DNA of 64,000 nt from Microvirga aerophila (GTDB lineage: Bacteria > Pseudomonadota > Alphaproteobacteria > Rhizobiales > Beijerinckiaceae): positions 1-64,000 of the forward strand of contig NZ_QOIO01000021.1 in the NCBI RefSeq assembly GCF_003332305.1, in the 5' to 3' direction. Both the position numbers and the translations under genes were made by a program. The notes under the pieces were generated by a model. It was given only the letters and a program-made list of their open reading frames with translations, was not told the DNA's origin and did not search any database. Positions 31,865-62,713 of this stretch are shown here, piece after piece (position 1 is the stretch's first letter; each line of letters opens with the position of its first letter).

Positions 31865-32374
31865 TCAGCGGCGGGTGACGGTGGCGCTCAGGTTCGGCCG
31901 GTTGTTGAGCGACTGGAACACCACGCAGTAGCGTTCGGTCAGCTTGAGAAGCTGGTCGATCTTCTCCTGGGGCGCATCGGTGTCGACCTCGAAGCTCAAG
32001 CGAATGTCCTTGAACCCGACCGGAGCGCCCTTGTCGACGCCGAGCGTGCCGCGAAAATCCAGGTCGCCCTCGGCCTTCACAGCCCCGTGGCGCAGGTTGA
32101 TCTCGAGCGCGGTCGCAACCGCTTTCAGGGTCACGCCCGCGCAGGCAACGAGCGCTTCGAGCAGCATGTCGCCCGAGCAGAGTTCCACGCCCGAACCGCC
32201 GGTGGCCGGATGAAGGCCCGCCACCGCCAGAGCGCGGCCGGTCTCGACCTTGCAGGCGATGTGCTGGTCGTCCAGCGTGCCTTGGGCTTTGAGCGTGATG
32301 ACGGCGGCATCCGGATCGGCGCGGTACTGATCCTTCAGCGGCGCCTGCAGGGCGCGCAGAGCAGTCGAGTCCAT
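31865..32374 (-). CDS. OsmC family protein
   Basis: 169 residues with the OsmC fold. The two peroxidatic cysteine regions are SGVELCSGDMLLEALVACAG and TERYCVVFQSL. OsmC/Ohr proteins are thiol peroxidases, but the placement of three cysteines here fits neither classical OsmC nor Ohr fully, so the substrate is open. AAGGA precedes the ATG. It lies 19 bases after the ABC ATPase gene on the same strand, probably the last gene of the sulfonate-type operon, which would tie it to sulfur or redox metabolism. Confidence 0.82.
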   Translation of the reverse strand: MDSTALRALQAPLKDQYRADPDAAVITLKAQGTLDDQHIACKVETGRALAVAGLHPATGGSGVELCSGDMLLEALVACAGVTLKAVATALEINLRHGAVKAEGDLDFRGTLGVDKGAPVGFKDIRLSFEVDTDAPQEKIDQLLKLTERYCVVFQSLNNRPNLSATVTRR

Positions 32375-32393: not shown

Positions 32394-33182
32394 TCACCAC
32401 CAGAGCGCGGCGGCCTGACGGTCGCGCTCGCGCTGGGGCTGCTTTTGCGGCGTGTTGAGCGATTGGTCCAGGGCTGTCAGTACACGACGGACGGATGTTT
32501 CGAAAGGCAGTCCCGCCTTGTCGCGAGGCCGGGCAAGCCCAAGGCCCAGTTCGTCGAAGATGCGTCCAGGCTTCGGCTGCATGACGATCGCCCGGTCGGC
32601 CAGGGTCACGGCCTCCTGCACGTCGTGCGTGACGAGAACGACGGTGGGGCGCGTCTCTTCCCACAGGCCCAGCAGGTGCTCGTGAAGGCTGGCGCGTGTG
32701 AACGCGTCGAGGGCCGAGAACGGCTCGTCGAGAAGCAGAACCTTCGGGTTGGTGACGAACGCGCGGGCAATCGCCACGCGCTGCTGCTGCCCGCCTGAAA
32801 GATCGCGCGGCCAGCGTTTCGCATGCTCGGCGAGGCCGATCTTCTCCAGCGCATGCCCGACCCGGGCCTTGCGCTCGGCGCTGCTCACGTTGTCGAGACC
32901 GAACGCGATGTTGTCGAAGACCGACAGCCACGGCAGGAGGCGCGGCTCCTGGAACACGATTCCAACCGCCGGGTTCGGTCCGTCGATGGTCTCGCCGTCG
33001 AGCCGGATGGCTCCGGCGCTCGCCCGGTCGAGACCGGCGATGAGGCGAAGCAACGTGGTCTTGCCGCAGCCGGAACCGCCGATCAGCCCGACGATCTCCG
33101 CCTCATGGACCATGAGGTTGATGTCGGACAGCGCGCGGGTGCCGTCGGCATAGGTCTTGGAGAGGTGTTCGAGGCTTAGCAT
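32394..33182 (-). CDS. ABC transporter ATP-binding protein, sulfonate/nitrate type
   Basis: 262 residues. Walker A GGSGCGKTT at 35-43, Q-loop FQEPRLLPWLSV, signature LSGGQQQR, Walker B LLLDEPFSALD and switch VTHD are all present. Sequence style (SsuB/TauB) and the operon with an SsuC-like permease and an SsuA-like binding protein define an aliphatic sulfonate-type importer. The start at 33182 shares its first base with the permease stop (TGATG). The leader of this operon carries a SAM-II-like element, which fits sulfur uptake. Confidence 0.92.
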   Translation of the reverse strand: MLSLEHLSKTYADGTRALSDINLMVHEAEIVGLIGGSGCGKTTLLRLIAGLDRASAGAIRLDGETIDGPNPAVGIVFQEPRLLPWLSVFDNIAFGLDNVSSAERKARVGHALEKIGLAEHAKRWPRDLSGGQQQRVAIARAFVTNPKVLLLDEPFSALDAFTRASLHEHLLGLWEETRPTVVLVTHDVQEAVTLADRAIVMQPKPGRIFDELGLGLARPRDKAGLPFETSVRRVLTALDQSLNTPQKQPQRERDRQAAALWW

Positions 33183-34036
33183 CACAGGCGCTCCCGCACG
33201 GTGTCCTGCCAGCGCACGAGCGGCTTGGTGGAATAGACCAGAATGCTGTCGGCGATCTTGCCGAGGAGCGCGAAGGCGATGATGGCCGCGAGGATCTGAT
33301 CGGGCTTGCCCATCTGCTGACCGTCGACCAAGAGGTAGCCTAGGCCTTCCGACGCGCCCATGAACTCGGCCGCCACCACGAACATGAAGCCGAGGCCTAG
33401 CCCTGAGCGCAGCGCGATGAGGGCTTCGGGCAGAACCGCCGGAAGCAGGATGCGCCGAGCGAGCTTGGTGCGGGAGAGTCGGAACACGTGACCCACTTCT
33501 ACAAGCTTGCGGTCGACGGAGAGAATCGCGCCCGCGATGCCGAGATAGACCGGGAAGAACACGCCCACGGCGATCAACGCGACTTTCGATGCCTCGAAGA
33601 TGCCGAGCCACAGGATGAAGAGCGGCACCCAGGCGATGGACGGAATGGCGCGAAGCGCCTGAAGGGTTGGATCGAGCAGGCGGCGGATGGTTTCATTGGC
33701 GCCGGACAGTGCGCCGAGCACGATCCCGGCCGCGGCCCCGATGGCGAAGCCCGCGAGAATGCGCCAGAGGGTCGCCCACACGTGGGTCCACAATTCGCCG
33801 GTTTCCGAGAGTGCCGCGAGGGTTGCCAGGATGCGGCTCGGCGGCGGAACGAGGCGGCCCTGGGCGACGCCGAAAGTCACGGCTGCTTCCCAGAGAAGCG
33901 CGATGAGGATGGGAAGAAAAAAGCCGAGAAGGACGCGCCAGTCGAAGGCGCGACGCTTCTCGGCAAGGACAGGGGCCGCGAGAGCGGCGGCACCCTCATG
34001 GGAGGACCAGGCTTGGCTTTCGGCTTGGCCTGTCAC
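33182..34036 (-). CDS. ABC transporter permease, sulfonate type
   Basis: 284 residues with about six membrane helices of the SsuC/TauC group. The EAA loop is EVGHVFRLSRTKLARRILLP, contacting the ATPase. The first 30 residues are cytoplasmic and hydrophilic. The stop overlaps the ATPase start by one base. The binding-protein gene ends 24 bases upstream. The whole order on the minus strand is binding protein, permease, ATPase, OsmC. Confidence 0.92.
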   Translation of the reverse strand: MTGQAESQAWSSHEGAAALAAPVLAEKRRAFDWRVLLGFFLPILIALLWEAAVTFGVAQGRLVPPPSRILATLAALSETGELWTHVWATLWRILAGFAIGAAAGIVLGALSGANETIRRLLDPTLQALRAIPSIAWVPLFILWLGIFEASKVALIAVGVFFPVYLGIAGAILSVDRKLVEVGHVFRLSRTKLARRILLPAVLPEALIALRSGLGLGFMFVVAAEFMGASEGLGYLLVDGQQMGKPDQILAAIIAFALLGKIADSILVYSTKPLVRWQDTVRERL

Positions 34037-34060: not shown

Positions 34061-35029
34061 TTAGCGGGCAGCGGTCGCGAAGCTGCGGTCGATAAGCGAA
34101 TCGACGGCGGCCTTCACGTCCGTGCCGGCATTGATGACGCCCGCCTGCTGCAGGGCGAGGCCTGCGGCCAGGACCGTGTCCACCTGCGGCTGACCGATGG
34201 TCGAATGGGTCAGTTCCGTGCGCTCGAGCTGACGCTCGATGACCGTCTCGGGCAGCTTGGTGTAGGACACGAGGGTCTTTTTCAGCTCGTCGCGATTGGC
34301 GAGCGAATAAGCGCGGGCTTCCTCGTAAGCCTTGAGCACCCGCGAGACGAGCGCAGGGTTCTCCTTGGCGAAGGTCTCGGTGACGTTCAGCACGCCCCAG
34401 GTGTTGGCGGCCGCGTTGCGGTGGAAGAGCGTCGCGCCGCTCTCCACTTCCGCCGCGGCCATCAGCGGATCGAGGCCGGCCCAGGCGTCCACGTCGCCAC
34501 GCTCGAGAGCCGTGCGCCCATCCGGATGCTGGAGCAGTACGAGCTTCACGTCCTTCTCGGTGAGCTTGGCGTCCTGCAGGGAGCGGACGAGGAAGATGTG
34601 CGGATCTGTGCCGCGGGTGACGGCGACGCGCTTGCCCTTCAGGTCCTCGACCTTGGTGATGCCGGTGTCCTTGCGGGTCACGAGGGCGGTCCATTCAGGA
34701 CGGGAATACACGTAGATCGACTTGATCGGGTTGCCGTTGATCTTGCCGATCAGCGCGGCGGCGCCGGCCGTGGAGCCGAAATCGATCGAGCCCGCATTCA
34801 GGAATTCAAGCGCCTTGTTGGAGCCCAGCGATTGCACCCAGCGAACCGTGATGCCGTCCTTGGCCAATTCCTTTTCCAGGAAGCCCTTGTCCTTGAGGAC
34901 GAGGCTGACCGGGTTGTAGGTGGCGTAATCGATGCGGATTTCCTTCACCTGAGCCGAAGCTGCGGTGGCGAAGGACGCGATGCCGGTGGCGAGGGAGGCG
35001 GTGAGAAGGAAGCGGCGGGTCAGTCTCAT
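34061..35029 (-). CDS. sulfonate-type ABC transporter substrate-binding protein
   Basis: 322 residues. Signal peptide MRLTRRFLLTASLATGIASF with cleavage after ASA near residue 26. The mature protein has the SsuA/TauA fold: IRIDYATYNPVSLVLKDKGF, LGSNKALEFLNAGSIDFGST, VEDLKGKRVAVTRGTDPHIF and the ALERGDVDAWAGLDPLMA segment. The ligand is probably an organosulfonate; a thiamine precursor (THI5-like fold) is a weaker alternative. AAGGA precedes the ATG. Just upstream a hairpin GGTTCCTATG / CATAGGACC lies against the ribosome site, and further up is a SAM-II-like aptamer with a near-consensus promoter. Confidence 0.9.
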   Translation of the reverse strand: MRLTRRFLLTASLATGIASFATAASAQVKEIRIDYATYNPVSLVLKDKGFLEKELAKDGITVRWVQSLGSNKALEFLNAGSIDFGSTAGAAALIGKINGNPIKSIYVYSRPEWTALVTRKDTGITKVEDLKGKRVAVTRGTDPHIFLVRSLQDAKLTEKDVKLVLLQHPDGRTALERGDVDAWAGLDPLMAAAEVESGATLFHRNAAANTWGVLNVTETFAKENPALVSRVLKAYEEARAYSLANRDELKKTLVSYTKLPETVIERQLERTELTHSTIGQPQVDTVLAAGLALQQAGVINAGTDVKAAVDSLIDRSFATAAR

Positions 35030-35090
35030 ATCCTTGGGTCCTATGTTTGGCGCATAGGAACCCTCGACCGTGAGGTCTTGAGCGCCCGGC

Positions 35091-35142
35091 GCTTTAGCTG
35101 CACTTGTTTCGCGCCCGCAAGCTGCATGCTCAAATCGGCGCG
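35091..35142 (-). promoter_or_regulatory. SAM-II-like riboswitch aptamer
   Basis: Minus-strand RNA with the elements I know from rhizobial SAM-II leaders, in order: P1 arm CGCGCC, then GATTTGAGC, GCTTGC, P1 partner GGCGCG, AAACAAGTGC and AGCTAAAGC. GCTTG in the first loop can pair with CAAGT downstream, giving the expected pseudoknot. A sigma70 promoter would start the RNA at the first P1 base. The genes controlled are a sulfonate-type importer, consistent with SAM feedback on sulfur supply. It was identified by eye; a covariance-model search would be decisive. Confidence 0.72.
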
Positions 35143-35149
35143 TGTCCTT

Positions 35150-35178
35150 TATGTAGAACCAATCGTTTCTTTTGTCAA
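35150..35178 (-). promoter_or_regulatory. sigma70 promoter of the sulfonate-type operon
   Basis: On the minus strand TTGACA (35178-35173), exactly 17 bases, TACATA (35155-35150). The -35 box is perfect. The predicted start of transcription near 35143 coincides with the first base of the aptamer, which supports both calls. Confidence 0.8.
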
Positions 35179-35199
35179 ACGTCGTAGCGTATAAAGAAC

Positions 35200-59989: not shown

Positions 59990-62713
59990 TCACTGCTGCG
60001 CCTTCAGGCGGTAGAGCGCTTCCAGGGCTTCCCGAGGCGTCATCTGGTCGGGATCGATGCCGTCTAGCGCTTCCCGCAGCGGGTCCCGCTTCGGTTGCGT
60101 CGGTTGCGTCCGAACGGGAGCCGCGAAAAGCGGCAGATCGTCCACCAGGGCGCGTTTCGGGCTTTCCCTGTCGGACCGCTCCAACTCGCTCAAGATCGTC
60201 TTGGCACGCTCCACCACGGCCAAGGGCAGGCCAGCGAGGCGCGCCACCTGCAGGCCATAGGACCGGTCCGCCGCGCCTGGCACGACCTCGTGCAGGAACA
60301 CCACCTCGCCATTCCATTCCGTGACCTTCAGGGTCGCGTTGGCGATGCGCGGCATGCGGTCGGCGAGGGCTGTCAGTTCGTGGAAGTGGGTGGCGAAGAG
60401 GGCGCGGCAGCGGTTTGCCTCGTGCAGGTGCTCGATGGCCGCCCAGGCGATGGACAAGCCGTCGAAGGTGGCGGTGCCGCGGCCGATCTCGTCGAGGATG
60501 ACGAGGGAGCGGGACGTGGCCTGGTTCAGGATCGCCGCCGTCTCCACCATCTCGACCATGAACGTGGATCGCCCGCGCGCCAGATCGTCCGCTGCGCCGA
60601 CACGGGAGAAAAGCCGGTCGACGATTCCGATATGCGCCTCCCGGGCAGGCACGAACGATCCCATCTGGGCCAGCACCACAATCAGGGCGTTCTGGCGCAG
60701 ATACGTTGATTTACCGCCCATGTTGGGGCCGGTGATCAGGAGAATGTGCCCGGCATCCTTGCCTGAAAGGTTCGAGTCGTTCGCAATGAAGGCAGCGCCT
60801 TCGCGTTTGAGGGCTGCTTCCACGACCGGGTGGCGACCGCCCCTGATGTGGAAGGTCAGCCCGGTGTCGATGGTGGGCCGCCTCCAATCGAGGCGCACGG
60901 CGAGGTCCGCCAGCGCCGCCGTCACGTCCACCACCGCGATGGCCTCGGCCGCGCGGGCGATGTCGGCCGATAGGTCGATGAGGTCCTGCGCCAGGGTGTC
61001 GAACAGACCAAGCTCGATCCGAAGCGCCCGGTCGGATGCGGAAGCGATCTTCGATTCGAGTTCGCCGAGCTCCAGAGTGGAGAAGCGCATGGCGCCCGCC
61101 ATAGTCTGGCGGTGGACGAAAGTGTCTTTCCAGGGCTCCTTGAGCAGGTCCTCGCCCACGTTCTGCGGCACCTCCACGAAGTAGCCGATCATGTGGTTGT
61201 GCTTGACGCGCAAGGTGCGGCAGCCCGTCTCCGCCGCGTAACGAGCCTGGAGCGCCGCGATGAAGCGACGGGAATCCTGCTGCAGCTCGCGCAATTCATC
61301 GAGGCTCTGATCGAACCCTGCGCGAACGAAGCCGCCGTCGCGCTTCAGGAGCGGCAGGTCCTCGGCAAGCGCCACCGCGAGCCGCTCGGCCACGTCCGTC
61401 CGCAGGGATTGCAGCAGTTCCGCCGCGCCCGAGAGCTCTTTCGGCAGGTTGGGCGTAATGGCGAGTTCGAGCCCCAGATCCCGCGCGGCGAACAGGCCAT
61501 CGCGCACGCAGGCTAGATCCCGCGGCCCGCCGCGTCCCAGGCCGAGGCGCGAGAGGGCTCGCGCCAGATCGGGCGAGCGTTTGAGGATGCGTCGCAGCCG
61601 GTCGCGCAGGTCTCCGTTTTCCACCAGGGACGCAACCGCGTCCTGTCTGTCGTGGATCAGGCCCGGATGGGTGAGGGGGCCGGCCAACCGGTCCGCAAGC
61701 AGCCGCGCGCCGCCGGGCGTCACCGTGCAATCGATGGTGGCGAGCAGGCTGCCGGACCGCTCGCCCGAGAGGGTCCGCGTGAGCTCGAGGTTGGCCCGGG
61801 TGGCGGAGTCGATGGCGAGCGCCGCTCCCGCATTGTCCCGCACGGGTGGGTTGAGGACCGGGCGGCTGCCGATCTGCGTCTTCTCGATATAGAACAGGGC
61901 GCTGCCGGCCGCCGTGATCTCGGCCCGGCTGAAGGAGCCGAACGCGTCCAGGGTTGCGACGCCGAAATGCTCCTTGAGCCGCCGCTCGGCCGATGCGGGA
62001 TCGAGGCCCTCGCGGGACAGGGGCGTGATGGAGGCCCTGGTCTCCCGCCAGAAGGCCGCGAGTTCGGGGTCGTCGTGGATGACGTCGGGCACCAGGATCT
62101 CGCGCGGCTCGAAACGGGCGATCTCGGCCGAAAGGCCCGCCCCATCCGTCTCGCTCAGGACGAAATGTCCTGTGGAAATATCCACGGCCGCCAAGGCGTA
62201 GCACCATTGCGTATCGGAGACGCGGCGGCGCGCAATAGCCAGGAAGTAATTGGCGCGGCCCGGTTCGAGGAGGCGTTCCTCCGTGATGGTGCCCGGCGTG
62301 ACGAGGCGCACCACGTCGCGGCGCACCACGGATTTCGCTCCCCGCTTCTTGGCCTCGGCCGGATCCTCGGTCTGTTCGCAGACCGCCACCCGATGCCCCA
62401 GGCCGATCAGGCGCTGGAGGTAGTCGTCCGCCCGGTCCACGGGCACCCCGCACATGGGGATGTCCTGTCCCTGGTGCTTGCCGCGCTTGGTGAGCACGAT
62501 GCCGAGGGACTGGCTGGCGATTTCCGCATCTTCGAAGAAGAGCTCGTAGAAATCCCCCATCCGGTAGAACAGGAGGCTATCCGGATTCGCCGCCTTGATC
62601 TCGATATACTGTGCCATCATGGGCGTGACGCGGTTGTCCGGCACCGTCTTCGATGCGGAGGTCTCGGGCGTCGCGGGGGACTCGGCGGGCTGGTACAGGG
62701 CTTGTGATGACAT
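59990..62713 (-). CDS. mutS: DNA mismatch repair protein MutS
   Basis: 907 residues, standard alphaproteobacterial length. Mismatch-binding domain with [20 protein letters not shown] (the Phe-x-Glu wedge region), connector and clamp domains, then the ATPase domain with Walker [61 protein letters not shown] and [18 protein letters not shown]. The C-terminal dimerisation helices are present ([16 protein letters not shown]). The ATG at 62713 opens the frame. maeB is divergent with about 150 bases between. No mutL is nearby. Confidence 0.98.

Follow-up and report, generated by a model that had tools for sequence, protein, structure and literature searches.

The leader of a sulfur-importer operon on the minus strand of the window, the 64,000-nucleotide stretch of Microvirga aerophila DNA analysed here, is with a probability of about four in five a SAM-II riboswitch of a conserved subtype, which would act as an OFF switch on the importer and its OsmC-like partner, probably at the level of translation. 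Comparative sequence analysis establishes the aptamer with its pocket nucleotides, the covariation of the P1 stem, a constant position downstream of the promoter, and the association with the operon across genera. The features of the locus, in window coordinates, are as follows.

35184-35199, unstranded: second degenerate copy of the dyad GTTCTNTATANAGAAC, three mismatches, upstream of the -35 box
35178-35173, minus strand: -35 box TTGACA, read from the sequence
35155-35150, minus strand: -10 box TACATA, read from the sequence, 17 nt from the -35 box
35144-35159, unstranded: degenerate copy of the dyad GTTCTNTATANAGAAC, two mismatches, overlapping the -10 box
35142-35137, minus strand: P1 5' strand CGCGCC, read from the sequence
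35136-35131, minus strand: third strand GATTTG, read from the sequence
35120-35117, minus strand: P2b strand TTGC, pairing with 35094, 35095, 35097 and 35098
35115-35110, minus strand: P1 3' strand GGCGCG, read from the sequence
35098-35092, minus strand: GCTAAAG, read from the sequence
35085-35142, minus strand: SAM-II aptamer core (RF00521 match, P1 covariation; 86.8 bits with subtype model R1, this copy being one of the rows from which R1 was built)
35036-35063, minus strand: leader hairpin; AGGA in its 3' arm, 9 nt upstream of the ATG at 35029-35027, resembles a ribosome site
34061-35029, minus strand: SsuA-family substrate-binding protein, 322 aa, ATG at 35029 (TIGR01728, 234.9 bits, cut-off 163.5)
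33182-34036, minus strand: ABC permease of SsuC type, 284 aa, below equivalog cut-offs
32394-33182, minus strand: ABC ATPase of TauB/SsuB type, 262 aa, below equivalog cut-offs
31865-32374, minus strand: OsmC-like protein of 169 aa, encoded by the operon's fourth gene (PF02566, 64.8 bits)

After the promoter, the minus strand carries in order the blocks CGCGCC, GATTTGAGC, CAGCTTGC, GGGCGCG, AAACAAGTGCA and GCTAAAG, the last ending at 35092. The preliminary description had named a SAM-II-type aptamer with its blocks in this order; the blocks can be read in the sequence as described, and the search with RF00521 (SAM_alpha/SAM-II) that it had proposed as a check matches positions 35074-35151 of the minus strand with 33.8 bits and an E-value of 4.1e-6 (351 nt against 4227 Rfam families), though this is 2.2 bits below the gathering score of 36. 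Because of that shortfall the element is absent from a scan of the whole window at gathering score, which lists a tRNA only, and the window copy exemplifies how annotation by the Rfam cut-off can miss such elements. The missed gathering score is a matter of an annotation rule and not a feature of the class; judged by its sequence the element is filed as SAM-II, because P1 covaries, the pocket triples are present and five of six orthologous leaders score over the RF00521 cut-off. The SAM_V model found no match in the leader up to an E-value of 10. Across the 6.0-Mb genome the second-best RF00521 match reaches 15.2 bits (150 of 770 candidates scored), and the core pattern occurs once in these 6 Mb, with none in a reversed control. 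A sub-threshold score is also what a chance match or a decayed, non-working aptamer might give, but a core kept in dozens of species, compensatory changes in P1 and a fixed spacing from the promoter make chance very unlikely, and we give this explanation almost no weight.

The conserved subtype to which the window copy belongs (type a) has P1 strands CGCGCC/GGCGCG, replaced in other families by AGCGCC/GGCGCT; model R1 was built from 22 of 42 distinct type-a cores, and a second model, R2, from 16 cores of another form (type b, below). Covariation was examined in 23 hand-picked related rows, comprising 11 of 56 distinct type-a, 6 of 16 type-b and 6 classical sequences; an earlier row selection had dropped 24 classical rows lacking the exact GATTTG, together with one locus lacking the core (L091), and three of those classical rows were restored to this set. 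Both-sided changes occur in three of the six P1 pairs (C-G to A-U, C-G to U-A and G-C to C-G), with 98.6% of P1 cells, and 99.1% of all cells, paired. The P1 covariation score is 0.300 against 0.128 in shuffles, none of 500 of which scored as high, and slid versions of the stem reach at most 0.116; the bare count of both-sided pairs (3), by contrast, does not stand above the shuffles, 328 of the 500 reaching it. On this comparative evidence the P1 stem is supported by covariation, and the pairing, whose retention in the leaders of relatives had been put forward as a check, is kept in the 23 rows through compensatory changes. Both strands of P2b are present in all 23 rows and, because they are invariant, are uninformative for covariation. 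P2a comprises two base pairs in the window copy and two to four in 40 of 43 distinct segment pairs, being absent in the other three by the rule used; when P2a complementarity was tested by permutation, 116 of 2000 permutations gave a value as high, which is not significant.

The pocket nucleotides G8, U10-U12, U20-C23 and G42-A46 are all found in the window copy by our own mapping of positions, in which the placement of U10 and U44 is in part our assumption. They also occur in 78 of 78 rows, a circular count since the rows were chosen by pattern. The triples given for the solved SAM-II structure in the part of PMC3764141 drawn on here, G8-C23-G42, U11-U21-A45 and U12-U20-A46, are all present in the window. 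These nucleotides bear on whether the element could be a diverged SAM-II relative with another ligand (SAH, a polyamine or another sulfur metabolite), comparable to the spermidine-sensing variants of SAM-I. The low RF00521 score of the subtype and its importer target would fit such a change, which is known for SAM-I (PMC10853860, in extract); in the SAM-I case, however, contact nucleotides were changed, whereas those of the solved SAM-II pocket are kept here, and many of the genes linked to the element elsewhere are sulfur genes. We consider a different ligand improbable and retain SAM as the likely one.

The promoter had been described as near-consensus, and this holds for the -35 box but not for the -10 box. 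The -35 box has at least five of six matches to TTGACA in all 86 distinct upstream sequences of such elements, and lies exactly 36 nt before P1 in 78 of the 86, compared with 6 of 103 for a control stretch of the same loci. The -10 box TACATA agrees with TATAAT at three of six positions; the commonest hexamer at this place in relatives is TATAAA (20 of the 86). A promoter scan of the region reported no sigma-70-type site, owing to the weak -10 box. Transcription of the importer operon would start just before P1. Such an arrangement had been thought less usual, a view that is not borne out: according to the sections of Corbino 2005 (PMC1273637) consulted, P1 of SAM-II is usually preceded, at a distance of a few nucleotides, by a near-consensus promoter, so that it is usual for the aptamer to open the RNA.

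The element is conserved at the orthologous operon, as the preliminary description would lead one to expect. RF00521 matches at an E-value of 0.1 or better in all 48 Microvirga genomes, five of them over the cut-off, and each genome has at least one match to the core pattern, against a single match in all 48 together for the reversed control. The type-a core in its window form is present in 46 of the 48 (list read by eye), G009 and G017 having type b only, and an orthologous SsuA-type binding-protein gene stands beside the type-a element in 38 of the 39 examined among those 46, window included. At 30 of 30 loci (the window and 29 relatives, whose proteins are 81.7-91.0% identical to that of the window) this gene adjoins the element, and it does so at eight of nine further loci fetched by place. 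At one locus (L084, G043:C9, about 156126) the aptamer is intact and only the last part of the binding-protein gene is left.

The aptamer is present in 57 of the best 80 named orthologous loci out of 578 relatives, Bosea and Pseudorhodoplanes included. The exact core occurs in 54 of these 80; in three more (L157, L192 and L195) the aptamer before the binding-protein gene contains an insertion, probably a hairpin, between the P1 3' strand and the strand ending AGCTAAAG; R1 gives these copies 50.3, 30.9 and 36.0 bits, respectively. In six orthologous loci that lack the exact core (L157, L170, L171, L188, L196 and L203) RF00521 gave no match up to an E-value of 1; the first of these is the copy that scores 50.3 bits with the subtype model. 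The other 23 of the best 80 (12 of them Bradyrhizobium) have nothing over 13.4 bits with R1, one of them, L212, offering just 157 nt of upstream sequence. The six Pseudorhodoplanes-side leaders tested (Pseudorhodoplanes and five other Hyphomicrobiales assemblies) score 34.3-46.2 bits with RF00521, five of them over the gathering score. On a quick tree of the binding protein, unrooted and with many weak branches, the presence or absence of the element requires at least 6 changes, compared with 20.4 in shuffles, a pattern which fits an old element lost several times. By eye, Enterovirga and Methylobacterium tarhaniae keep a similar promoter-like stretch from which the aptamer is gone. Three loci (L171, L194 and L203) have no aptamer upstream of the binding-protein gene and, again by eye, keep the near-palindrome CGTTTGACATAACGAACG or a near copy of it over the -35 box; this near-palindrome is possibly an operator.

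The importer operon is divergent from glnD. Its identification as an SsuA-family importer agrees with the score of the binding protein well over the TIGR01728 cut-off, and the best solved chain for the profile of this protein is 2x26, a periplasmic aliphatic sulphonates-binding protein. The OsmC-like gene adjoins the importer in most of the named orthologous loci whose contig reaches that far, and this conserved link offers a handle on the substrate of the importer. A search of the genome (a draft assembly of 184 contigs) for the alkanesulfonate monooxygenase SsuD, as distinct from other desulfonating enzymes, gave at best 80.4 bits against a curated cut-off of 518.2, and thus 'sulfonate' is here a family name and not an established substrate. 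We tentatively raise a broader proposal, which we think somewhat less likely to hold than to fail: that the importer and its OsmC-like partner serve organosulfur salvage, by an undescribed route that supplies methionine and SAM, rather than forming a sulfonate system, and that SAM-II switches, many of them under the Rfam cut-off, run a class-wide regulon of sulfur uptake and assimilation in Alphaproteobacteria that extends beyond methionine synthesis.

SAM-II was proposed to be an OFF switch (Corbino 2005, PMC1273637, in the sections consulted), and for the window leader we infer SAM as the ligand, the OFF direction and control of translation. With SAM plentiful, the pseudoknot would close around its ligand and so lower the expression of the importer and of the OsmC-like partner; with SAM scarce, sulfur uptake would rise. 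Control would probably be exerted at translation, via the ribosome site. Three features favor this reading: the aptamer is not followed by a T-run, its short P2a resembles that of translational SAM-II and SAM-V switches, and a conserved hairpin holds the ribosome site. Five consecutive T within the 100 nt that follow the aptamer are seen in 1 of 103 leaders of this set (L185), compared with 27 of the 42 similar elements from elsewhere in the order and class; the 103 leaders are loci, with some genomes repeated under two names and two second Bosea aptamers included. A strict stem-plus-T terminator test, an insensitive one that detects only 9 of the 42 elements elsewhere, found none in the 103. 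Intrinsic termination as the output was rejected on the single T-run in 103 leaders and on the position of both terminator-like sites found in the region, which lie upstream of the promoter. The hairpin abutting the ribosome site of the binding-protein gene, as previously described, is found at 35063-35036, and in 24 of 25 folded leaders from Microvirga and the Bosea side a hairpin immediately preceding the start codon carries a ribosome-site-like sequence in its 3' arm, with differing stem sequences (L152 is the exception; start codons were set by alignment, one being off by 3 nt). A short 2-bp P2a is a feature of the translational metX SAM-II, and short P2a goes with translational switches (PMC6061858, in extract). 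A short coding ORF beginning ATGCGC in the hairpin of the type-a leader was also considered and rejected by eye, having four codons in the window and varying in frame and length.

The aptamer may instead belong to a real SAM-II switch that acts by a route other than masking of the ribosome site, for example through Rho-dependent control of transcription, through the stability of the mRNA, or through a remote standby site like that of Sinorhizobium metA. When 17 hand-picked leaders were folded with RNAfold, the ribosome site remained paired whether or not the aptamer was imposed (its probability of being unpaired never exceeded 0.25) and no switching was seen, which suits such a route. So does the SAM-II metA leader of Scheuer 2022 (PMC9373788, in the part used), whose required Shine-Dalgarno sequence stands 74 nt upstream of the AUG in use and for which opposite effects on the stability of the mRNA were found, as does the view in the extract of PMC6061858 that most SAM-II are transcriptional, together with the T-runs of the 27 elements elsewhere. 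The near absence of T-runs from the leaders of this set and the retention of the ribosome-site hairpin through differing stems nevertheless count against it, and we regard another route as a real but minority possibility beside translational control through the hairpin.

The element resembles SAM-II as represented by RF00521 and the consulted sections of PMC1273637 in P1, the third strand GAUUU, P2b (UUGC/GCUAA), block order, a promoter a few nucleotides before P1 and occurrence in Alphaproteobacteria; it differs in its target, an SsuA-type importer and an OsmC-like gene, its short P2a, the lack of a T-run, the P1 sequence CGCGCC/GGCGCG, a slightly different strand before GCUAAAG and a score below the Rfam cut-off. 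With the Sinorhizobium metA leader, as given in the part of PMC9373788 used, it shares the SAM-II aptamer, a long leader and a hairpin between the aptamer and the used start codon; there, however, the target is metA and the intervening hairpin is a terminator, whereas no T-run was found in the window leader. Pelagibacter SAM-V (extracts of PMC5069961 and PMC6061858) has the same pocket fold, a short P2a and translational control, and one copy precedes osmC, a gene that is raised under sulfur limitation; in contrast, the window leader has no SAM_V match, and those extracts have Pelagibacter raising no further organosulfur importers. SAM riboswitches of Bacillota likewise precede metNIQ and COG0715 (ssuA-named) importers (PMC12452182, in extract), but these cases are from another phylum, the COG0715 importers are read there as hydroxymethylpyrimidine importers and SAM classes are merged. 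The SAM-II targets named in the portion of Leyn 2014 (PMC4239095) consulted are metY, metA, metX, metC, hom and metW, and the window target indeed lies outside these methionine-synthesis genes; the surprise is limited, because the same source has SAM-I controlling transporter genes as well as methionine synthesis in Firmicutes. No report of SAM-II before a sulfonate-type importer was found among the matches listed (titles and abstract beginnings in the open-licence literature), which is not proof of novelty. The finding would add sulfur acquisition to methionine synthesis among the processes under SAM-II control in a large group of bacteria.

Related elements precede a range of other genes. 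In a sample from the family, 29 of 30 fetched best-scoring (classical) hits precede members of one BLAST cluster, represented by an O-succinylhomoserine sulfhydrylase, and one precedes a metA-like gene. R1 at an E-value of 1e-7 finds matches in 14 of 397 genomes from the order and in 57 of 289 from the class, some of the matches being classical forms. From these matches 40 regions with 42 elements were picked: nine elements precede a window-type binding protein, one (L251) directly precedes a 71%-identical OsmC-like gene, and assignment to BLAST clusters places 13 before metY-like genes (with a scan of one representative) and two before MetN-like genes (by cluster alone). Single elements precede cysG, a sulfate-binding protein, cysH and a sulfite/nitrite-reductase-like protein.

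The type-b form, with P1 strands CGCGG/CCGCG, is a second SAM-II-like element found in Microvirga and other genera of the family (L066-L105, L114-L135). It precedes genes for a MetQ/NlpA-type lipoprotein (L101), a MetN-like protein (L104, under cut-off) and MsuE-type FMN reductases (L088, L103), among others. A short reading frame with a Cys/Arg-rich end (e.g. CCRF, CCRFTA) often follows the aptamer, 18 of 32 leaders passing a crude CC/CR test, and type b possibly combines a cysteine leader peptide with a SAM switch. Tandem SAM-II pairs are already known, with 44 cases given in the consulted part of PMC9481103. Two type-a aptamers lie close together in Bosea (L097, L098), where one precedes the binding protein and the other a second ATPase-like ORF with OsmC, and also in L251, where OsmC directly follows one aptamer and the binding protein follows the other. 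In 8 of 40 loci searched (L250, L261, L262, L263, L264, L266, L268 and L283) a type-a element is followed about 64-112 nt on by a type-b element; these second elements score 45.6-56.8 bits with R2, which was built from other loci.

The window genome has SAM-II at the importer, while none was found in the leader of metZ, a gene that is present (563.9 bits) and whose leader carries a perfect dyad GTTCTNTATANAGAAC. In this genome (G000) the dyad lies at C98:54695-54710, C163:14531-14546 and C112:43855-43870; it is exact upstream of metZ and has one mismatch both near a sulfhydrylase-like gene and upstream of another ORF, which presumably resembles ATC hydrolase. Within the window, the two degenerate copies at the promoter (35144-35159 and 35184-35199) are joined by a third match far off at 61880, and none of 100 shuffles had three. 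The dyad is possibly the operator of a sulfur regulator shared with the importer.
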